Below are positions 2 to 10,395 of a DNA stretch of 38,100 bases, piece by piece. The stretch spans positions 1 through 38,100 of the forward strand of contig CAMZLD010000091.1 in NCBI GenBank assembly GCA_947311635.1, in the 5' to 3' direction. The first letter of the stretch is position 1, and every line of letters begins with the position of its first letter. The stretch is from an uncultured Flavobacteriaceae bacterium (GTDB lineage Bacteria > Bacteroidota > Bacteroidia > Flavobacteriales > Flavobacteriaceae). A model generated the notes under the pieces. The model made no database searches. It was given only the letters and a program-made list of their open reading frames with translations, and was not told the origin of the DNA. A program made the position numbers and the translations under genes.

Positions 2-397
2 GGAAAAAACTATCAAACAGGAGAAAAATCGATTCTTTTAAGACTTTTTGAAAAAAAATACATGGGAGATTTTATCGATTTTATGGAAGATTACAACGAT
101 ATCAATCTCGCAAAAAAATTCAAGCAATTACCTAAAGAAACCCAAGAAGATGTTAATTTGATCAACGCAATGCGCCATTATGATCATACCGTAAATGTAA
201 AATGGGTAATGGCACATTATAATGCAGCCAATAAATATTTAGGCGATAGTGATATTGAAGCCACAGGAGGAAGTAATTGGCAAAAATACATGCATCCAAA
301 ATACCAACGAAGAATATTTTTCCCTTTTCTTTGGAACGAAGATGAACTTAAAAACTGGGGAATTACCAATTTAGAAGGGTATAAAACAATTTCTTAG
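2..397 (+). CDS. Tryptophan 2,3-dioxygenase family protein, C-terminal part (cut by window edge)
   Basis: The frame is open from base 2, so the gene begins outside the window and the ATG at 62 is probably internal. The visible part is about 131 residues. It contains a run of helices with HYNAANKYLGD, followed by ATGGSNWQKYM and QRRIFFPFLW. The (T)GGS(x)W motif just after a helix matches the substrate/haem-side loop of the tryptophan 2,3-dioxygenase family (haem enzymes that open the indole ring of tryptophan to N-formylkynurenine). The flavobacterial members are divergent, so substrate is an inference. From memory, this gene is often followed in Flavobacteriaceae by DUF3108 and M23 genes, as here. 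The family is called from motif memory only, and without the N-terminal half the haem histidine cannot be assigned. Confidence 0.7.
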   Translation, partial: GKNYQTGEKSILLRLFEKKYMGDFIDFMEDYNDINLAKKFKQLPKETQEDVNLINAMRHYDHTVNVKWVMAHYNAANKYLGDSDIEATGGSNWQKYMHPKYQRRIFFPFLWNEDELKNWGITNLEGYKTIS

Positions 398-485
398 AAA
401 ACACTTAAAGTTTCCAAAAAAAGAATTGTTATTTTTTTGGAACAGTAATTGTAATGTGATAAGTACAATACAAACTCAAATTAAA

Positions 486-1259
486 ATGATAAAAAGATTA
501 TTATATATTTTCATACTACTAATTAGTGTTAGTGCTTTTTCGCAAGCAAATAAAAATGCTTTTAAGCAAGGAGAATGGCTTAAATTCGACCTTAGTTATA
601 GTGGGTTTTTAAAAGCAGGAGAAGCTACTCTCTCTGTAAACGAAACCACAAACCAAGGAAAAGCAGCATATCATGTTATAGGAAAAGGGAAGACTACCGG
701 AATGATTAAATGGTTTTTTGCAGTAAAAGATAATTATCAAACCTATTTTTATAAAGAAAACTTGAAGCCTTATAAATTTATTAGAAAAATAGATGAAGGA
801 GGTTATAAGAAAAATAAAGAAATTCATTTTGATCATGAATCAAAAACAGCTTTAGTTATAGATCACAAGAATAATACAAAAAAGTCTTATAAAATAAAAG
901 ATATCCAAGATATGTTGTCGTCATTATATTATTTAAGAGGGCAAGATTTTAGTAACTACAAAAACGGTGATGCTGTTAAAATGAAACTTTTTTTTGATGG
1001 AGAAATGTTTGACTTTAAACTAAAACTTTTAGGGAGAGAGACGATAAAAACCAAGTTCGGAAAAGTAAAAACTTTAAGATTTAGACCTTATGTACAAGCA
1101 GGTAGAGTTTTTAAAGAACAAGAAAGTTTAACAGTTTGGGTGTCTGATGATGAAAATAAAATACCTTTAAAAATTAAAGCTTCTCTAGCAGTAGGCTCTT
1201 TAAATGCAAAACTTGTAGGCTATAAAGGATTAGCAAACCCTTTTAACATAATTTATTAA
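486..1259 (+). CDS. DUF3108 domain-containing exported protein
   Basis: The protein is 257 residues from the ATG at 486. A longer frame opens at 426 but would put 20 polar residues before a clear signal peptide (MIKRLL, hydrophobic core, cleavage near SAFSQA), so 486 is preferred. The mature part starts with a GEWLKFDLSYSGFLKAGEA segment and runs as a series of beta-strands to the end, the pattern of DUF3108, a periplasmic beta-barrel-like domain of unknown function in Bacteroidota and Proteobacteria. No catalytic residues are evident. It lies 88 bases after the dioxygenase-like gene and 56 bases before the M23 peptidase; the pairing with an M23 peptidase suggests an envelope role, but this is inference. 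Confidence 0.8.
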   Translation: MIKRLLYIFILLISVSAFSQANKNAFKQGEWLKFDLSYSGFLKAGEATLSVNETTNQGKAAYHVIGKGKTTGMIKWFFAVKDNYQTYFYKENLKPYKFIRKIDEGGYKKNKEIHFDHESKTALVIDHKNNTKKSYKIKDIQDMLSSLYYLRGQDFSNYKNGDAVKMKLFFDGEMFDFKLKLLGRETIKTKFGKVKTLRFRPYVQAGRVFKEQESLTVWVSDDENKIPLKIKASLAVGSLNAKLVGYKGLANPFNIIY

Positions 1260-1315
1260 AATTAAATTGTAATTTTACATTTCGAAATAATTTACACTAT
1301 TAAAGAAATGTAATC

Positions 1316-2578
1316 TTGAAAAGAATAATCCCCTTTTTTCTACTATTAATTACCCTATCTTGTAAAGAAGAAAAAAAACCCATTATACCAGATAGTTTTC
1401 TTCCGAAAAAAACAAATACAGAATTTGGTTATTTGTTAGATGATTTTAATGTCATAAAAGACACAATTAGATCTGGCGAAAACTTTGGAGAGATTTTAGA
1501 CAGAAATCATGTAAGCTATGCGCAAATAAACAAGATTGTTACAGCTATTAAAGACACTTTTGATGTAAGAAGACTAAGAGCAGGAAAACCCTACACCATT
1601 CTTGCAAGTAAAGATTCTTTACAAAAAGCACAAGTATTTATTTATCAAAAAAACATTATTGATTTTGTAGTCATAGATTTTAAAGATACTATAGTACAAG
1701 CGTCTGTCAATAAAAAAGAAGTACAGACAGTTGTTAAAACAGCTTCTGGTGTTATTCAGACGTCACTTTCAGAAGCCATAGACAAACAAGGGCTTAATTA
1801 TATATTAGCACATGAGCTGTCAGATATATACGCATGGACCATTGATTTTTTTCATTTACAAAAGCAAGACAAGTTTAAAATCATTTACGAACAGCGTTAT
1901 ATTAACGATACTCTTCCCGCAGGGATTGGAGAGATAAAAGCCGTTTATTTTGAGCACAATAAAGAGCCATTTTACGCCTTTAATTACATTGCAGATTCTA
2001 TAAAAGGTATTCCAGATTATTTTGATGATCATGCAAAAACACTTCGGAAAAAGTTTTTAAAAGCACCCTTAAAATTTAGTAGAATTTCTTCAAGATACAA
2101 CCCAAACAGAAGAATAAAATATTATGGATATAAAAAACGACCACATCTAGGAACCGACTTTGCAGCTCCATTAGGCACGCCCATACTTGCAACAGCAAAT
2201 GGTACTGTAGTTGAATCAACACGTAGAGGCGGTAATGGGAAGTTTGTAAAAATTAAACATAACGGTACTTATACAACCCAATACTTGCACATGAAAAAGC
2301 AAGCTGTAAAAAAAGGTGATTTTGTGAAACAAGGAGATGTTATTGGATGGATAGGAATGACAGGTAATTCTGGTGGTCCACATGTGTGCTATCGTTTTTG
2401 GAAAAATGGCAAGCAAGTAGATCCTTTTAAAGAAAAATTACCAGAAGCAAAACCTTTAAATGATAGTATAAAAAAGCAATATTTAGAATATATCAAGCCA
2501 GTTAAAAAGGCAATAGACGCTATTACTTACCCACTAGAAGAAGTTCCTTTTCAAGAAGATAACAATTTACCTATCTAA
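1316..2578 (+). CDS. M23 family metallopeptidase lipoprotein (peptidoglycan hydrolase-like)
   Basis: The protein is 420 residues and starts with TTG at 1316; the nearby ATG at 1308 is out of frame and stops at once. The N-terminus is a lipoprotein signal with lipobox LSC (Cys16), so it should be anchored to a periplasmic or outer-membrane face. Residues about 50-130 form a LysM/OapA-like module seen in M23 peptidases, and the LytM/M23 domain runs from about 275 to 372. The zinc motif HxxxD is present (H277, D281), as is the conserved H325. The final HxH motif instead reads H356-V-C358. In LytM-type enzymes the second His of HxH binds zinc, so here Cys358 would have to replace it. My recollection is that this H-x-C form occurs in other Bacteroidota, so it may be a lineage variant. 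A cell-wall endopeptidase or a scaffold role are both possible. Confidence 0.88.
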   Translation: MKRIIPFFLLLITLSCKEEKKPIIPDSFLPKKTNTEFGYLLDDFNVIKDTIRSGENFGEILDRNHVSYAQINKIVTAIKDTFDVRRLRAGKPYTILASKDSLQKAQVFIYQKNIIDFVVIDFKDTIVQASVNKKEVQTVVKTASGVIQTSLSEAIDKQGLNYILAHELSDIYAWTIDFFHLQKQDKFKIIYEQRYINDTLPAGIGEIKAVYFEHNKEPFYAFNYIADSIKGIPDYFDDHAKTLRKKFLKAPLKFSRISSRYNPNRRIKYYGYKKRPHLGTDFAAPLGTPILATANGTVVESTRRGGNGKFVKIKHNGTYTTQYLHMKKQAVKKGDFVKQGDVIGWIGMTGNSGGPHVCYRFWKNGKQVDPFKEKLPEAKPLNDSIKKQYLEYIKPVKKAIDAITYPLEEVPFQEDNNLPI

Positions 2579-2606
2579 ATAGACAAAACAGCATTTTTGT
2601 TAATAA

Positions 2607-2696
2607 TATGTTAACATATAATAAGTTAACAGCGTTTTAGGATTGCCCCTTTTTATTATTTTTGAATATTCTTAATATTATGTTAACTCTTAACAT
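2607..2696. promoter_or_regulatory. Two TTAACAT dyads upstream of the TonB-dependent receptor operon
   Basis: A 12-base perfect palindrome, TATGTTAACATA, lies at 2607-2618. A second inverted repeat, ATGTTAA-CTC-TTAACAT, lies at 2680-2696, and a further GTTAAC is at 2625-2630. They bracket the candidate -7 box at 2657-2664, so one dyad would sit upstream of the promoter and the other just downstream of the start of transcription. This arrangement suits an operator for the receptor-lipoprotein operon. The region is very AT-rich, so chance is not excluded, and the cognate regulator is unknown. Confidence 0.35.
2657..2664 (+). promoter_or_regulatory. Candidate -7 promoter element (TATTTTTG) for the TonB-dependent receptor operon
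   Basis: The box matches the Bacteroidota consensus TAnnTTTG and lies 100 bases before the receptor ATG in a 186-base gap. No TTG is seen at the expected distance upstream, so the call rests on the -7 box alone. Confidence 0.35.
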
Positions 2697-2764
2697 TAAA
2701 TTAAACTAAGAATAAAATTTTAATAGCATTTTTGCAAAATATTTATAAACTTTAATTTTTAATA

Positions 2765-5335
2765 ATGAAACACTTAAAAAATTTATTTTTGGTAGCCATG
2801 TTTATCGTAACATCTGCCATGTTTTCACAAGGAACAATTACAGGTACTGTAATGGATGTTGATGGTCCGTTGCCAGGTGCAGATGTTATTGTAATGGGAA
2901 CAACCAAAGGAGCGTCAACAGATTTTGATGGTAACTTTTCTGTAGACGTACCAAGTAATACAGGTAATTTACAAGTTTCTTTTGTAGGTTATACAAAAAA
3001 AACAATTCCGTTTACACTTAAAAACGGACAATTAAACATTGGTTCTATTTTGTTAGATGCTGATGGTGAAGCAATAAGTGATATTGTTTTAACTGCTACA
3101 TCTTTTGCGATTGACAGAAAAACACCTGTAGCTGTTTCCACAGTAAAAGCTGCTGTGATAGAAGATAAATTAGGAACGCAAGAATTTCCTGAAATATTAA
3201 AATCAACTCCTGGAGTTTATGCAACAAAATCTGGTGGAGGTTTTGGTGATGGAAGATTAAACTTAAGAGGGTTTAATTCAGAAAATGTTGCTGTAATGAT
3301 AAATGGAGTTCCCGTAAATGATATGGAGAACGGACGTGTATATTGGTCTAACTGGGCTGGATTGTCAGATGTAACCTCTGCAATGCAAGTACAAAGAGGT
3401 TTAGGGGCATCTAAAGTGGCTGTACCGTCAATTGGTGGAACAATCAACATTTTGTCTAAAACAACAGATGTTAATAAAGGCGGAAGTGTAAGAGCTACTG
3501 TAGGAACCGATGGTTATTTAAAATACGGAGCAACTTTGTCAACAGGGTTACTAGATAATGGTTTTGCTGTAACTGTTTCTGCTGCAAAAACACAAGGAGA
3601 CGGTTATGTTGATGGAACACAGTTTGTAGGGTATAATTATTTTATAAACATATCAAATCAAATTAATGACGCTCATAAATTATCTATAACTTCATTTGGA
3701 GCACCACAAAGACACGGGCAAAGACAAAACAGAAGTTTAATATCTACTTATAGAAATTCTGAAAGTGGAATAAGATTTAATCCTGATTGGGGTTATAAAA
3801 ATGGTCAAGTTGTTCATGTAGAAGATAACTTTTATCATAAATCTCAGACTTCATTAAATCACGAATGGACAATTTCGGACAAATCTTTATTGTCTACTGC
3901 ACTTTATGTATCTTGGGGTACTGGTGGAGGTGGCGGTACAGCTGGCTCTAACAGAGGTTTGTTTAATAATAGAATTGGTGGTTTTGACCAACCAATAGAT
4001 TTAGATAATATTGTTTCAATAAATAGAGCTAATGGAGCTTTAGGTTCAGAAGCTATTCTAAGAGCATCAAGGAATGATCATAATTGGTATGGTGCTTTAT
4101 CAACTTATAAAACAGCGTTAACAGAAAATGTTGATTTTTTAGCGGGTCTTGATTTAAGATCATATACAGGCTCTCACTTTAGAGAAGTAACAGATTTGTT
4201 AGGAGGAGATTATTTCTTAGATAATAGTGACGTAAACAACCCTAATGTTGCTTTAAATGTTGGTGATAAATTTGCTTATAATAATGATGGCAATGTAGGT
4301 TGGCAAGGATTTTTTATGCAAGCAGAATATGACAAAGAAAAATTAGCAGCCTTTATTTCTGCCTCATTCTCTAACACTTCTTACCAAAGAGTAGATTATT
4401 TTAATTATTTAGATAGTGACCCAATACAAACCACAGATAAATATAATTTTATTGGTTACGGTACTAAAGGTGGTGCAAATTATAACTTGAGTGATATTCA
4501 TAATGTTTTTGTTAATGTTGGTTATTTTGAAAAAGCCCCAGAATTTGGAGCAGTTTTTCAAAGATTTGATAATGAACATATAAATGATCAAGCAGAAAAT
4601 CAAAAAATATTTAGTACAGAGATTGGTTATGGGTTAAGAGGAGAAAAATTAGCAGCAAACATTAACTTATACAGAACAACATGGAAAGATAGAACATTTA
4701 CTAGAGGCTTAAGAGATGCAGATGGAAATGATTTTACGGCAAATATTTTAGGAGTAAATGCTTTGCATCAAGGTGTAGAATTTGATTTTACATTCAAAGC
4801 TTCTGATAAACTAAAGTTTAACGGAATGCTTTCCGTTGGAGATTGGTCTTGGGATAATGACATTACTGGTACAAAAATATTTGACAATGCTCAAAATGAA
4901 ATTGCAACAATAGATTTGTTAATCAAAGGTTTAAAAGTTTCAGATGCAGCTCAAACAACTGCAGCTTTAGGGATGAATTATAAATTTTTAGAAAAATCTA
5001 GTTTTTCTATTGATTATAATTACTACGATAACTTATATGCAGATTTTGATATTTTAGGAAGTGCAAATATTGTATTTACAGGAGACCCTGCTGTTACGCC
5101 AACAAGACCTAGTGATACTTGGAAAGCTCCAAGTTATGGCTTATTCGATGTAAGTTTAAAACATGGTTTTAAAATAGGAAGTTTAGATGCTTCTGTTACA
5201 GGTAGGTTAAATAATGTTTTTGATACTGAGTATGTTTCTGATGCCTTAAACGGAACAGGCTCTAATGCAGCTACTGCATTAGTTTGGTTTGGTAGAGGAA
5301 GATCATTTAATGTTTCAACAAAAATTAAATTTTAA
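2765..5335 (+). CDS. TonB-dependent outer-membrane receptor with carboxypeptidase-regulatory-like N-terminal domain
   Basis: The protein is 856 residues with a signal peptide ending near AMFSQG. A carboxypeptidase-regulatory-like (CarboxypepD_reg) domain follows at about residues 24-100 (GTITGTVMDVDGPLPGADV). The plug domain is at about 115-235, with RGFNSENVAVMINGVPVND, and a beta-barrel fills the rest, ending in aromatic-rich GRGRSFNVSTKIKF, a typical C-terminal barrel strand. It imports a ligand using energy from TonB. No SusD-type gene follows; instead a repeat-containing lipoprotein starts 18 bases downstream and probably serves as the surface partner. The substrate is not evident. The sequence lacks the double-plug signature I would expect of a SusC glycan porin, so a metal, haem, peptide or other small ligand is equally possible. 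Confidence 0.92.
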   Translation: MKHLKNLFLVAMFIVTSAMFSQGTITGTVMDVDGPLPGADVIVMGTTKGASTDFDGNFSVDVPSNTGNLQVSFVGYTKKTIPFTLKNGQLNIGSILLDADGEAISDIVLTATSFAIDRKTPVAVSTVKAAVIEDKLGTQEFPEILKSTPGVYATKSGGGFGDGRLNLRGFNSENVAVMINGVPVNDMENGRVYWSNWAGLSDVTSAMQVQRGLGASKVAVPSIGGTINILSKTTDVNKGGSVRATVGTDGYLKYGATLSTGLLDNGFAVTVSAAKTQGDGYVDGTQFVGYNYFINISNQINDAHKLSITSFGAPQRHGQRQNRSLISTYRNSESGIRFNPDWGYKNGQVVHVEDNFYHKSQTSLNHEWTISDKSLLSTALYVSWGTGGGGGTAGSNRGLFNNRIGGFDQPIDLDNIVSINRANGALGSEAILRASRNDHNWYGALSTYKTALTENVDFLAGLDLRSYTGSHFREVTDLLGGDYFLDNSDVNNPNVALNVGDKFAYNNDGNVGWQGFFMQAEYDKEKLAAFISASFSNTSYQRVDYFNYLDSDPIQTTDKYNFIGYGTKGGANYNLSDIHNVFVNVGYFEKAPEFGAVFQRFDNEHINDQAENQKIFSTEIGYGLRGEKLAANINLYRTTWKDRTFTRGLRDADGNDFTANILGVNALHQGVEFDFTFKASDKLKFNGMLSVGDWSWDNDITGTKIFDNAQNEIATIDLLIKGLKVSDAAQTTAALGMNYKFLEKSSFSIDYNYYDNLYADFDILGSANIVFTGDPAVTPTRPSDTWKAPSYGLFDVSLKHGFKIGSLDASVTGRLNNVFDTEYVSDALNGTGSNAATALVWFGRGRSFNVSTKIKF

Positions 5336-5353
5336 TAATAAACACAAAGTAAG

Positions 5354-6436
5354 ATGAAAAAAGTATTTTATTTATTAACCGTTATAGCTTTAGTATTTAC
5401 TAGCTGTAACCCAATGGAAGAGATCTATACAGAAATAGACGCTCAAGAAGAAGCTATTATTGGTGACATTGTTTTTACAATGGAAACTGCCGACTACGAA
5501 AGAACAGGTGATGCAGATGTAGAAACGAACGAAGCCTTTATGTCTTATGCACAAGCAGAAATGTTAATTCCAGCTGTTTTAGCAGACAAATACCCAGTTT
5601 GGGGTAAAGGATCATCTGCTATTGTAACCTTTGCTTACGATAGACTTAATTCTGTAATTAATGAAGTTGCTTACGAAGTAACAAACGATGATTATACTGT
5701 TTTATTAGGAAATTCATTTCCAAATTTTGGAAGAAATCATACAGAAGAAGCCAAAGCATTTTTAAAGATTAAGTATCCTGATGCAGTACGTGGAGATTTG
5801 GTTGAATTAACTTACAAATACTATAATGGTGGTATTAATAATGTTGTAGCAAAATTTGTATATACAGATGAATGGTTAGCACCACAAGAATTAGTTAGTG
5901 CAGATTATACAGCAATGGGACAGAGATACCCTAATTTTAGTAATTTTGATGATGCAGCGTTTAAAATTGGTGTATATCTAGGTACATTACCAGAAAACAC
6001 CTATGCTCAAGCAGGAGATATTAAGAATATTCTTTACACTTATACCTATATAGACGCAGCTATGCTTAGACAATTTGAAGACGTAATAACTTCTTACACA
6101 TATGATGGAGCTCAATGGAATACAATACCAAACACAATCAAATTTGGTCATAATGGTACTGTTTGGGAAAAAGACAATACCATTAAGTATACTTTAACAA
6201 ATGATGATTATGCTTTGATTGGAAATGATAGGTATAATAATTTTGATGTAAGAGTAGGTAGTGATGATGAAACTGTTGAAGCTCGTTTAGCTAAAATAAA
6301 CACAATTTTGTTAAATAACTTCCCAGCAGATGCAGAAGGACAAAAGTATATTGTATCTTATAATATATATAATGGATCTAGTGCAGTTTGGACTATGGAT
6401 GTAATAAAAGTAGGGTCAGAATACGTTTTGCAATAG
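5354..6436 (+). CDS. Hypothetical lipoprotein with four internal repeats, partner of the upstream receptor
   Basis: The protein is 360 residues with a lipoprotein signal (lipobox TSC, Cys18). The mature part is built from four related units of roughly 65-95 residues. Each opens with a strand, then a Asp-Tyr pair (residues 47-48, 113-114, 184-185, 285-286). Units 2 to 4 then read as a G-N/Q-x-x-(F/Y)-x-N-F turn, a helix ending at a FP/YP/LP step, and a strand with YxxYNG or YTYTY. Unit 1 is the most diverged. The spacing to the receptor gene is 18 bases, and a rho-independent terminator follows, so the two form an operon. I do not recognise the family. By position it could be a surface ligand-binding lipoprotein of the receptor, which is inference from context only. 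Confidence 0.85.
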   Translation: MKKVFYLLTVIALVFTSCNPMEEIYTEIDAQEEAIIGDIVFTMETADYERTGDADVETNEAFMSYAQAEMLIPAVLADKYPVWGKGSSAIVTFAYDRLNSVINEVAYEVTNDDYTVLLGNSFPNFGRNHTEEAKAFLKIKYPDAVRGDLVELTYKYYNGGINNVVAKFVYTDEWLAPQELVSADYTAMGQRYPNFSNFDDAAFKIGVYLGTLPENTYAQAGDIKNILYTYTYIDAAMLRQFEDVITSYTYDGAQWNTIPNTIKFGHNGTVWEKDNTIKYTLTNDDYALIGNDRYNNFDVRVGSDDETVEARLAKINTILLNNFPADAEGQKYIVSYNIYNGSSAVWTMDVIKVGSEYVLQ

Positions 6437-6461
6437 CAACTAAAATTTTTGATAAATTTCT

Positions 6462-6490
6462 AAAACCCCGCAATTTTGCGGGGTTTTTTT
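6462..6490 (+). terminator. Rho-independent terminator after the receptor-lipoprotein operon
   Basis: A 12-base-pair stem with a GC core (CCCCGC/GCGGGG) and a 2-base loop is followed by a run of T ending at 6490. It lies 25 bases after the lipoprotein stop. The A-tract on the left arm gives partial symmetry. Confidence 0.9.
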
Positions 6491-6504
6491 GGTTAAAAAA
6501 TCAC

Positions 6505-6512
6505 TACATTTG
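6505..6512 (+). promoter_or_regulatory. Candidate -7 promoter element (TACATTTG) for the small membrane protein gene
   Basis: The box matches TAnnTTTG and lies 23 bases before the ATG at 6536, just after the terminator of the previous operon. No TTG is found at the best distance upstream. Confidence 0.45.
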
Positions 6513-6535
6513 TCAACAATCTAAAACAACAACTT

Positions 6536-6973
6536 ATGGAGATATTTAAAACCATACATTCGTATTGGGCATATATTGTATTAGCAATTGTGATTTTTGC
6601 AGTTGTAAACGCATTAAAAGGAATGTTAACAAAAAAAGACTTTCAAGAAACAGACTTAAGAATTTCATTATTCGCACTCATAGTTTCACATTTACAGTTA
6701 TTAATTGGCTTAGCGTGGTATTTTATGAGCCCAGTTTATAAAAGTATGAAAGCTTCCGGAATGGGAGAAGCCATGAAAAACGCAGACGTTAGACTACTTT
6801 CTGTAGAACATCCTTTAACAATGATTTTTGCAATTATATTAATAACGATAGGCTTTTCTAGACATAAGAAAAAAACAACCAGCAAAGAAAAATTCAATAC
6901 AATATTCCTTTTCTACGGAATAGCACTCATACTAATACTCGTAAAAATACCTTGGACCAACTGGTTTTCGTAA
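6536..6973 (+). CDS. Four-helix integral membrane protein of unknown function
   Basis: The protein is 145 residues with four predicted transmembrane segments at about 11-29, 43-63, 91-108 and 120-137. Histidines sit near or inside the helices: H8 in IHSYWAY, H52 in VSHLQLL and H92 in VEHPLTM. The conserved-looking HLQLLIGLAWYF and EHPLTMIFAI segments resemble small cytochrome b-like or CopD-like bundles, so haem or metal binding is possible, but I cannot assign a family. It has its own candidate promoter and lies 102 bases upstream of rplU; the intervening promoter suggests that rplU is transcribed separately. Confidence 0.75.
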   Translation: MEIFKTIHSYWAYIVLAIVIFAVVNALKGMLTKKDFQETDLRISLFALIVSHLQLLIGLAWYFMSPVYKSMKASGMGEAMKNADVRLLSVEHPLTMIFAIILITIGFSRHKKKTTSKEKFNTIFLFYGIALILILVKIPWTNWFS

Positions 6974-7009
6974 AAAGCAATTCTTTTTTAAGGAAAGCGG
7001 TCAAGAATA

Positions 7010-7039
7010 TTGTTTTTAGTAAAAAAAACAATATATTTG
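7010..7039 (+). promoter_or_regulatory. Near-consensus flavobacterial promoter for rplU-rpmA
   Basis: TTG at 7010-7012 is followed after 19 bases by TATATTTG at 7032-7039, which fits the Bacteroidota pattern (TTG at -33, TAnnTTTG at -7). It lies 36 bases upstream of the rplU ATG. This is the best complete promoter match in the window, as expected for ribosomal protein genes. Confidence 0.65.
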
Positions 7040-7075
7040 CACTCATTTTTAATTAAGCGAAAAACAATAAACATT

Positions 7076-7798
7076 ATGTACGCAATTGTAGAGATAGCAG
7101 GGCAGCAGTTTAAAGTAGCAAAAGATCAAAAGGTATTTGTTCATCGTTTACAACAAGAAGAAGGGTCAAAAGTAACATTTGACAAAGTTCTTCTTTTGGA
7201 CGACGGAAAAGTAACTATTGGCGCCCCAGCTATAAAAGGAGCAGCAGTGACTGCCAAAATTTTAAGTCACCTAAAAGGTGATAAAGTAATCGTTTTCAAG
7301 AAAAAACGAAGAAAAGGATATCGTGTAAAAAACGGACACCGTCAGTCGTTTACCCAAATCCAAATAGAGAGTGTTGTAGCAACAGGAGCAAAAACTTCTA
7401 CGAAAGCAGCACCAAAAGCAAAAGAAGCTCCTAAAAAGGAAGCTCCTAAAGCGGAAGTTGAAAAAACAGCAACAAAAAAGAAAGAAGCTAATAAAGTAGA
7501 AAAAGTAGTCGCTAAGAAAACAGCAACTAAAAAAACTACACCAAAAGCAGATGATCTAAAGAAAGTAGAAGGAATTGGACCTAAAATTGCAGAACACTTT
7601 AACAATGCAGGTATTTTTACTTTTGAAGAGTTAGCAAATACAGAAGTTAGCAAATTACAAGAAATTTTAACGGCTGCCGGACCAAGATATAAAATGCACA
7701 ACCCAGGTTCATGGCCTAAACAAGCAAAAATGGCTGCTGATGGAAAATGGGATGAATTAAAAGAGTGGCAAGACGCTCACGATAAAGGATTAGAATAA
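7076..7798 (+). CDS. rplU: 50S ribosomal protein L21 with C-terminal Lys/Ala linker and HhH domain
   Basis: The protein is 240 residues from the ATG at 7076; a longer TTG-started frame from 7010 runs through the promoter and is rejected. Residues 1-103 are a complete L21 ([14 protein letters not shown] at the start, [17 protein letters not shown] in the rRNA-binding end). Ordinary bacterial L21 is about 100 residues and stops here. Residues 104-157 are a Lys/Ala/Pro-rich linker. Residues 158-240 begin with [17 protein letters not shown], a helix-hairpin-helix motif, followed by [16 protein letters not shown] and a W-rich tail. The HhH module normally binds nucleic acid without sequence specificity. 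This extension is familiar to me from other Flavobacteriia. It is cotranscribed with rpmA 21 bases downstream. What the extension does on the ribosome is unknown. Confidence 0.96.
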
Positions 7799-7819
7799 TA
7801 ATATTAAAACTATAAAATT

Positions 7820-8080
7820 ATGGCACATAAAAAAGGTGTTGGTAGTTCGAAAAATGGTAGAGAATCAGAATCGAAACGTTTAGGAGTTAAAATTTTTGGT
7901 GGACAAGCTGCAATAGCAGGAAACATTATCATCCGTCAAAGAGGAACAACACATTACCCAGGAACCAACGTTTACATGGGGAAAGACCATACTTTACATG
8001 CTAAAGTAGATGGAATTGTAAAATTTCAAAAGAAAAGAGATAACAGATCATACGTTTCTATTGAGCCATTTGAAGCTTAA
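7820..8080 (+). CDS. rpmA: 50S ribosomal protein L27
   Basis: The protein is 86 residues, the usual length for L27. The N-terminus [24 protein letters not shown] is the classical flexible tail that reaches the peptidyl-transferase centre, and the [20 protein letters not shown] segment is diagnostic. The N-terminus shows no cleavable extension of the Firmicutes type. It follows rplU in the standard rplU-rpmA order and is closed by a strong terminator 20 bases downstream. Confidence 0.98.
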
Positions 8081-8100
8081 GAAATCAAGATTTATAATAA

Positions 8101-8132
8101 AAACTCCCAAACAAAAGTTTGGGAGTTTTTTT
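8101..8132 (+). terminator. Rho-independent terminator after rplU-rpmA
   Basis: An 11-base-pair stem (8102-8112 with 8117-8127) with AAAA loop and CUCCC/GGGAG core is followed by seven T residues. It is placed 20 bases after the rpmA stop. Confidence 0.92.
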
Positions 8133-8144
8133 GTGTTGTTTTGT

Positions 8145-8152
8145 TACCTTTG
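8145..8152 (+). promoter_or_regulatory. Candidate -7 promoter element (TACCTTTG) for waaA
   Basis: The box matches TAnnTTTG and ends only 6 bases before the waaA ATG at 8159. A TTG at 8119-8121, inside the terminator stem, is 23 bases upstream. If used, the transcript would have almost no leader. Confidence 0.45.
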
Positions 8153-8158
8153 TAATTC

Positions 8159-9403
8159 ATGAATTTTTTATACAACATATTAACTATTCTTGCACAAGTA
8201 TTTCTTAAAGTAATTGCGCTGTTTAATAAGAAGATACAATTATTTGTAACCGGAAGAAAATCAACCTTTCAAACACTTTCAGATAATATCTCAAAAAAAG
8301 ATAAAACCATTTGGATACATTGCGCTTCGCTAGGAGAGTTTGAGCAAGGAAGACCAATTATCGAAAAACTAAAAGCAATCTATAAAAACCATAAAATTGT
8401 ATTAACATTTTTCTCTCCTTCAGGTTATGAAGTTCGAAAAAACTATATAGTTGCCGATGTTGTTTGCTATTTACCTTTAGATACCAAATCAAATGCTAAA
8501 AAATTCATAGAATTAGTACATCCAGAAATGGCAATTTTTGTGAAGTATGAGTTTTGGCCAAACTTTTTAAAAGAATTAAATCGAAATAATATCGAAACCA
8601 TTTTAGTTTCAGGAATTTTTAGAAAAGACCAACAGTTTTTCAAACCCTTCGGAAAATGGATGCGAAAATCACTACAAACATTTTCACACTTTTTTGTTCA
8701 AGATACAAATTCTAAAAAACTTTTGCAAGCTATTGATTTTAAAAACATTACCATTAGTGGAGACACCCGTTTTGATCGCGTTTTTGAAATAACAAACCAA
8801 AATAATTCTCTTGATTTTATTGAAGAATTTAAACAAAACCAACCAACTTTAGTTGCAGGAAGTACTTGGAAAGAAGATGAAAAATACTTAGTAGATTATA
8901 TTAATTCTAAAATGTCAACAGCAGAAAAAATAATTATTGCACCTCATAATATTCATCCGAAAGCAGTAAAAGCACTACAACAATCTATAAATAAAAAAAC
9001 TGTCTTGTTTTCAGAAAAAGAAAAACAAGACATACAAGATGCTCAAGTTTTTATTATTGATAGTATTGGTATTTTAACCAAAATATATAGTTATGCTAAT
9101 ATTGCTTATGTTGGTGGCGGTTTTGAAACAGGATTGCACAATGTATTAGAACCTGCAACTTTTGGAGTTCCTATTTTAATAGGACCAAAACATGATAAAT
9201 TTAAAGAAGCCGTAGATTTGGTAAACCTTGGTGGATGTATAGTTATAAAATCTCAAAAAGAGTTTGATAATCAATTACAAAATTTGTTTTTTGATGTCAA
9301 TTATCGCCAAGAAAAAGGAAAAATAACGAAAACATATATAACTCAAAATATTGGTGCTACAACTAAAATTTTGGAATATATTGCAACTAAAATCTCAAAT
9401 TAG
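8159..9403 (+). CDS. waaA: 3-deoxy-D-manno-octulosonic acid (Kdo) transferase
   Basis: The protein is 414 residues, typical of WaaA/KdtA (GT30). It transfers Kdo from CMP-Kdo to lipid A precursor at the inner face of the cytoplasmic membrane. A hydrophobic N-terminal anchor covers residues 1-22. The GT-B N-domain signature reads HCASLGEFEQGRPIIEKL, followed by VKYEFWPNFLKEL, and the C-domain has YVGGGFETGLHNVLEPATFGVPILIGP, the nucleotide-sugar binding loop. Its stop overlaps the GTG start of moaA by one base (TAGTG), so moaA may be translationally coupled to it even though the functions are unrelated. The start directly after a -7 box suggests a very short leader. Confidence 0.95.
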   Translation: MNFLYNILTILAQVFLKVIALFNKKIQLFVTGRKSTFQTLSDNISKKDKTIWIHCASLGEFEQGRPIIEKLKAIYKNHKIVLTFFSPSGYEVRKNYIVADVVCYLPLDTKSNAKKFIELVHPEMAIFVKYEFWPNFLKELNRNNIETILVSGIFRKDQQFFKPFGKWMRKSLQTFSHFFVQDTNSKKLLQAIDFKNITISGDTRFDRVFEITNQNNSLDFIEEFKQNQPTLVAGSTWKEDEKYLVDYINSKMSTAEKIIIAPHNIHPKAVKALQQSINKKTVLFSEKEKQDIQDAQVFIIDSIGILTKIYSYANIAYVGGGFETGLHNVLEPATFGVPILIGPKHDKFKEAVDLVNLGGCIVIKSQKEFDNQLQNLFFDVNYRQEKGKITKTYITQNIGATTKILEYIATKISN

Positions 9404-10395
9404 TGGAACAACAATTAATAGACAGTTTTGGACGCCAAATTTCTTATTTGCGATTGGCAGTAACAGACCGTTGTAATCTGCGTTGCCAATACTGTATGCC
9501 AGCACATGGTATTGATATTGTTGACCGTAAAGAGTTGTTGACCTTTAAAGAAATGTACAGAATTACACGCGTTTTGAGTGAACTAGGTGTCAATAAAGTA
9601 CGCTTAACAGGAGGTGAACCTTTTGTAAGAAAAGGCTTTATTGACTTTTTAGAAATGTTAGATTTTAATGATTTGCTAGACGAGATTAACATTACAACCA
9701 ACGGAGCGTTAATTAGTAACCACATCCATAAAATTGAGCAACTAAAAGTAAAAGCAATTAATTTAAGTATTGATAGTTTAGACAAGCAAAAATTCGCAGA
9801 AATTACACGCAGAGATGTTTTTGATGAGGTTTATAAAACCTTAGAAACTTTAGAAAAAAGTGCTATCAATTTAAAACTAAACATTGTTGTGCAATCTGGT
9901 ATAAATACAAACGAAATTATTGATTTTGTTACCTTGACAAAACACAAAAATATAGCCGTTCGGTTTATAGAAGAGATGCCCTTTAATGGCGTGGGGCAAA
10001 AAGCGGTGAAAGAAGTGTGGAATTACAACAGAATAATTAAAGAGATTAATGATAATTTTAAAAATGTTGAAAAATTAATCGATAAAAAGTCATCAACATC
10101 GCGTAATTTTAAAATTGCAAATTATGTTGGTACCTTCGGAATCATTCCTGCATTTACACGTACCATTTGTGGTGATTGTAACCGTATTAGAATCACCGCA
10201 ACAGGGCTATTTAAAAACTGTTTGTTTGATGATGGCGTTTTTAATATCCGTGATTTTATAAGAAACGGTGCAAGTAATGATGATTTAAAAGCATTATTTT
10301 TATCGCTTGTAGCAAAGAAACCGAAAGACGGATTTGTAGCCGAAAAACAACGAAATTCTGATGTGTCTGAAAGCATGTCAACCATTGGAGGATAA
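9403..10395 (+). CDS. moaA: GTP 3',8-cyclase MoaA (molybdenum cofactor)
   Basis: The protein is 330 residues and starts with GTG overlapping the waaA stop. It is a radical SAM enzyme that, with MoaC, converts GTP to cyclic pyranopterin monophosphate. The SAM cluster motif CxxxCxxC is seen as CNLRCQYC at about residues 24-31, followed by the SAM-binding LTGGEP. The C-terminal second [4Fe-4S] motif is seen as CGDCNRIRITATGLFKNC. The protein ends in Gly-Gly (SMSTIGG), the conserved tail needed for activity. It is the first gene of the Moco region, followed by moeA after a short repeat-bearing gap. Confidence 0.97.
   Translation: MEQQLIDSFGRQISYLRLAVTDRCNLRCQYCMPAHGIDIVDRKELLTFKEMYRITRVLSELGVNKVRLTGGEPFVRKGFIDFLEMLDFNDLLDEINITTNGALISNHIHKIEQLKVKAINLSIDSLDKQKFAEITRRDVFDEVYKTLETLEKSAINLKLNIVVQSGINTNEIIDFVTLTKHKNIAVRFIEEMPFNGVGQKAVKEVWNYNRIIKEINDNFKNVEKLIDKKSSTSRNFKIANYVGTFGIIPAFTRTICGDCNRIRITATGLFKNCLFDDGVFNIRDFIRNGASNDDLKALFLSLVAKKPKDGFVAEKQRNSDVSESMSTIGG

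Follow-up and report, generated by a model that had tools for sequence, protein, structure and literature searches.

The lipoprotein encoded at positions 5354-6436 of the window (the whole stretch of 38,100 nucleotides of DNA that was analysed) belongs to a real family, undescribed so far, that is strictly tied to one clade of TonB-dependent receptors, and it very probably functions as the partner of the receptor encoded directly upstream. The source of the two genes is a marine flavobacterium. Both lie on the plus strand, where only 18 nt separate the receptor gene (2765-5335) from that of the lipoprotein, and an intrinsic terminator with an 11-pair stem, six G-C pairs and a T run is found just past the lipoprotein stop codon, on the same strand (6462-6487). 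The short gap and the position of the terminator indicate that receptor and lipoprotein are probably expressed from one transcription unit of two genes. The receptor (856 aa) is a TonB-dependent receptor with an N-terminal CarboxypepD_reg_2 domain (CarbopepD_reg_2 in Pfam, 1.8e-16) and a plug (1.5e-15). Against TIGR04056, the SusC/RagA model, it scores 84.8 bits for a cut-off of 368.25, and the match is confined to the first 165 positions. A conserved downstream neighbour on the plus strand (6536-6973) encodes a predicted membrane protein of 145 aa; it was considered as a member of the module and rejected, since it also follows receptors that have no lipoprotein beside them and thus probably lies outside the module.

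The lipoprotein is 360 aa long and starts with a lipoprotein signal peptide (MKKVFYLLTVIALVFTSC; 5354-5407, plus strand) that extends to Cys18, a residue invariant in all 15 orthologues of the family alignment. The mature protein would begin C-N-P-M-E-E-I-Y, and the acidic pair at +5/+6 after the lipidated cysteine is mostly conserved among the orthologues. Signals for the export of surface lipoproteins have been described as K-(D/E)2 or Q-A-(D/E)2 in Capnocytophaga and as SDDFE in F. johnsoniae (PMC5080379). The acidic pair makes surface exposure plausible, although the C-N-P-M-E-E segment resembles the published minimal export motif without matching it.

Most of the mature chain consists of four repeat units encoded on the plus strand, namely a truncated unit 1 (residues 41-104; 5474-5665; unit HMM, 1e-11), unit 2 (residues 107-174; 5672-5875; 2e-17), unit 3, the longest, which ends in FGHNGTxWxxDN (residues 179-275; 5888-6178; 2e-23), and unit 4 (residues 278-359; 6185-6430; 1e-19). 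Their lengths are unequal, about 57-64, 68, 97 and 82 residues, respectively, and they share the pattern YTLTxxDYxxxGxxYxNF...I..L..xYPxAxxGDxVxVTYxxYxGS, with DY dipeptides at residues 47, 113, 184 and 285. In the lipoprotein alone the repeat is clear in units 2, 3 and 4 and weak in unit 1: pairwise shuffle tests on the single sequence gave p=0 (0/500) for units 2/3 and 2/4 and p=0.004 for units 3/4, while p was about 0.02 for units 1/2 and 1/4, and no signal was obtained for units 1/3. When the family alignment of 15 sequences was used with hhalign, all six unit pairs aligned in register, five of them with E values of 7.5e-12, 1.9e-11, 5.1e-9, 1.2e-10 and 5e-13 and units 3/4 with 1.2e-4. Applied to the 15 short orthologues, a unit HMM found four units in every one, neither more nor fewer. 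As this model was trained on those same units, independent support comes from the extra copies that it detects in longer homologues, with five units in L051 and six in L045, L048, L049 and L113. The original prediction, which had proposed four related units anchored by the DY pairs and had named self-alignment as one check, is thus borne out by the family alignment and the unit HMM, the units aligning well with one another.

The same prediction had recognised no known family in the lipoprotein, and none has come to light: a Pfam and NCBIfam scan of the window protein gave nothing above noise, scans of single units and of short homologues against the same collections returned no family match, and neither sequence nor profile searches of the PDB brought up a match. 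The pairing had also been described as one without SusD, and it is; no SusD domain was detected in the lipoprotein by Pfam or NCBIfam, even at E<=1, nor in any further gene of the window that was scanned on the two sides of the receptor, from 62 to 10395. Its identity as a DUF5689 transformation protein was considered and rejected, this domain being absent from the window lipoprotein and from the long homologues scanned, and the window protein has no choice-of-anchor-J/DUF5017 domain either. What marks it as a member of the family is Cys18, the four units with their DY/NF/L...YP/G..V.Y motifs, and a gene directly 3' of the receptor. Its nearest relative is L031, from an uncultured Polaribacter, with 55-56% identity.

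Structure prediction was informative for a single unit. A model of unit 4, for which the eight units of the window lipoprotein and of L031 served as input, reached a pLDDT of 90 and a pTM of 0.81, with the predicted order beta-alpha-alpha-beta-beta-beta. Compared with solved structures, it obtained nothing better than E 0.27 from Foldseek, and its best VIA-align Z score, 3.9 with a pyruvate kinase, is no higher than is usual between models that are unrelated. Given these weak matches, a new fold is neither proven nor excluded for the lipoprotein unit. The model looks unlike a propeller blade, a statement that applies to one unit only; the full-length model, for which two sequences were used, was of low quality (pLDDT 51), and the fold search made from it had no meaning.

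The partnership between the two proteins is strongly supported by their distribution. In a survey of 199 genomes of the family to which the window belongs, with a receptor threshold of at least 50% identity over the length, receptor and lipoprotein occurred in an identical set of 46 genomes, and their genes were adjacent at every locus read. In a tree of 36 receptors with a lipoprotein and 18 without, all 36 fell into one group that contained none of the 18. The usual genomic context of the pair is DUF3108-dioxygenase-M23-PGI, but the two genes have also been found together in unrelated surroundings, in L100 (another family of the class), L101, L102 (another class) and L107, and the fact that the pair is intact in such foreign settings argues that the two genes travel together. 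That the two proteins occur one to one, that their genes are always adjacent and that they relocate together all support the view, already advanced as a possibility in the original prediction, that the lipoprotein is the partner of the receptor, and the search for co-occurrence suggested there thus turned out in its favour.

Where the lipoprotein is lacking, the receptors are mostly only about 34-44% identical, and the neighbouring genes are usually retained, the next gene generally being that of the 145-aa membrane protein. Such a syntenic receptor without lipoprotein, followed by the membrane protein, was seen at L060, L061, L063-L067, L070-L072 and L075-L078, with one opposite-strand gene between the two at L067. 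The receptors with and without lipoprotein are most alike at residues 100 to 250. Distant relatives of the receptor are also present, without the lipoprotein, on viral contigs. On one of them, from IMG/VR (L053:3289-7068), a receptor 38% identical to that of the window is followed by an S1/P1 nuclease gene, and six further viral contigs carry similar receptors. Two local irregularities may be mentioned here. In most relatives a dioxygenase-like and a PGI-like gene stand on either side of the M23 peptidase gene, and both are missing at this place of the window (1259-2765); in one genome (G168; L042:7236-9824) a TAA codon interrupts the receptor gene that adjoins the lipoprotein.

The homologues differ in a variable slot at the junction of units 2 and 3 (5876-5887 of the window, plus strand). 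It is empty in 14 of the 46 genomes and holds one or two extra units in five (five units in all in G099, six in G124, G143, G172 and G174), while the remaining 27 have an insert of roughly 190 residues. Where Pfam and NCBIfam recognise this insert, in L047 and L107, it is a choice-of-anchor-J/DUF5017 domain, and we infer the same for most of the other long homologues from the length and position of their inserts and their BLAST similarity to L047. No such domain was found by Pfam in the long homologue of G060 (L106).

Nuclease genes are frequent neighbours of the pair. At least 21 of the 46 lipoprotein-positive genomes have an Endonuclease I gene as the immediate downstream neighbour, in the same orientation, and all five of these neighbours that were scanned were confirmed, four of them with Big_9/cadherin-like domains. 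Of the genomes without the lipoprotein, 67 have a receptor match at E <= 1e-100, and an adjacent Endonuclease I gene was found in one of these (G043), a difference with a Fisher p of 3e-9 in a test that ignores shared ancestry. Within the carriers, this neighbour is commoner where the slot has no long insert (15/19 vs 6/27, p=2e-4, kinship again ignored). An S1/P1 nuclease gene is found within a few kb of the relocated pairs L101 and L107, and at L106 a different, larger Endonuclease I gene is convergent with the pair. On the other hand, a same-strand adjacent Endonuclease I gene was not seen in 25 of the 46 carriers, and neither Endonuclease I nor S1/P1 nuclease was detected in the genome of the window, which is 80% complete.

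In many genomes a second system is encoded farther downstream, with an EEP nuclease, a second receptor about 22-27% identical to that of the window type, and a lipoprotein that combines DUF5689 with DUF5017. This system is also found 3' of receptors without lipoprotein, and its closeness is thus not specific to the four-unit lipoprotein. In R. anatipestifer, neither the receptor-like RA0C_RS04915 nor the adjacent RA0C_RS04920, with DUF5689 and DUF5017 domains, is dispensable for natural transformation (PMC8459023), a process that also needs tonBA, without a defect in iron uptake (PMC8383284). Judged by domain content, the second system shares its architecture with RA0C_RS04915/RA0C_RS04920. 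In the genome of the window, a second-type receptor gene, located on a short contig and cut by its end, is divergent from two tandem EEP nuclease genes (L120:1-4587); a ComEC gene is present as well, and DUF5689 gives only a weak match, elsewhere.

Taken together, the receptor and the lipoprotein may form a two-gene outer-membrane uptake module in which four small alpha/beta domains, arranged in a chain and tethered through the lipidated Cys18, would sit over or beside the TonB-dependent transporter. By analogy with SusD on SusC and BtuG on BtuB, the lipoprotein would cap the receptor, capture the substrate and present it. We infer surface exposure, physical association of the lipoprotein with the receptor, the binding of a substrate and its nature alike; no direct experiment on the four-unit family was found. 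The association of nuclease genes with the pair points to extracellular nucleic acid, the most likely substrate, though with odds that are only about even. It would be DNA, or pieces of it freed by the surface nucleases often encoded beside the module, and its uptake may serve nutrition (phosphorus, nitrogen or carbon) or genetic transformation. It is with more hesitation that the pair may be seen as a dedicated DNA-uptake system, with a TonB-powered receptor, a lid of repeated alpha/beta domains that handles nucleic acid and surface nucleases that feed it, in a role related to that of the pilus-free transformation machinery of Riemerella, which is itself unexplained.

Some observations speak against nucleic acid. 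With pI values of 4.05-4.24 and net charges between -28 and -72, the six lipoproteins tested are strongly acidic. A protein that binds DNA non-specifically is typically different, but the property is not decisive because the neighbouring Endonuclease I and DUF5689 proteins are about as acidic. In addition, about half of the carriers, the window genome included, have no adjacent nuclease gene. These data could also be accommodated if the partnership stands and the substrate is something else, for instance an organic phosphate, a metal chelate or peptides, the nucleases being close by for a different reason, such as phosphorus scavenging or clearing DNA from the cell surface. An acidic lipoprotein would fit a ligand that is cationic or contains a metal, and the syntenic receptor persists in lipoprotein-free genomes without either partner. 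Such a substrate has an appreciable, if lesser, probability, as it leaves unaccounted for that two unrelated nuclease families are found beside the pair, in three or more arrangements, two of which concern relocated pairs. That the lipoprotein is instead an adhesin or a structural surface protein co-transcribed with the receptor by chance appears improbable; the repeat architecture and the choice-of-anchor-J domain of some longer homologues would fit such a role, but an independent adhesin would not be expected to co-occur one to one with a single receptor clade, to be encoded always beside it and to relocate with it.

TonB uptake assisted by lipoproteins is at the heart of feeding in Bacteroidota, and many partners beyond SusD and BtuG are undescribed. 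The present family adds one that is defined by a repeated unit, tied to one receptor clade and endowed with a testable substrate. If that substrate is DNA, the module would help to explain how DNA passes the outer membrane in bacteria without transformation pili and in what way marine flavobacteria exploit DNA from outside the cell.

Among known systems, RA0C_RS04915/RA0C_RS04920 is similar in that the gene of an outer-membrane protein, which carries a carboxypeptidase-regulatory domain at its N-terminus, is followed by an adjacent partner gene; the choice-of-anchor-J/DUF5017 domain of RA0C_RS04920 recurs in some long homologues of the window lipoprotein, and a pair of this type with an EEP nuclease lies near the four-unit module in many genomes. 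The window lipoprotein, which has neither DUF5689 nor the anchor-J domain, is nevertheless set apart by its domain content, and the unit HMM found no copy of the repeat unit in the DUF5689 proteins of the loci read. BtuG is a beta-propeller that binds vitamin B12. The BtuB-BtuG system of Bacteroides likewise joins a TonB-dependent transporter to a non-SusD lipoprotein (PMC10404256), but the window lipoprotein is predicted from the unit model to consist of small alpha/beta units, and no link to B12 was found for the module. As in SusC-SusD, the receptor gene precedes that of the lipoprotein in what is probably a single transcription unit, whereas the window lipoprotein has no SusD domain and the receptor falls far under the SusC/RagA cut-off. 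Finally, phosphate depletion in Flavobacterium induces TonB receptors together with extracellular EndA nucleases (PMC8115612). The TonB receptors and nucleases of that low-phosphate response are the point of similarity with the module described here, and the PusCD complexes differ from it in their SusD-type partners.
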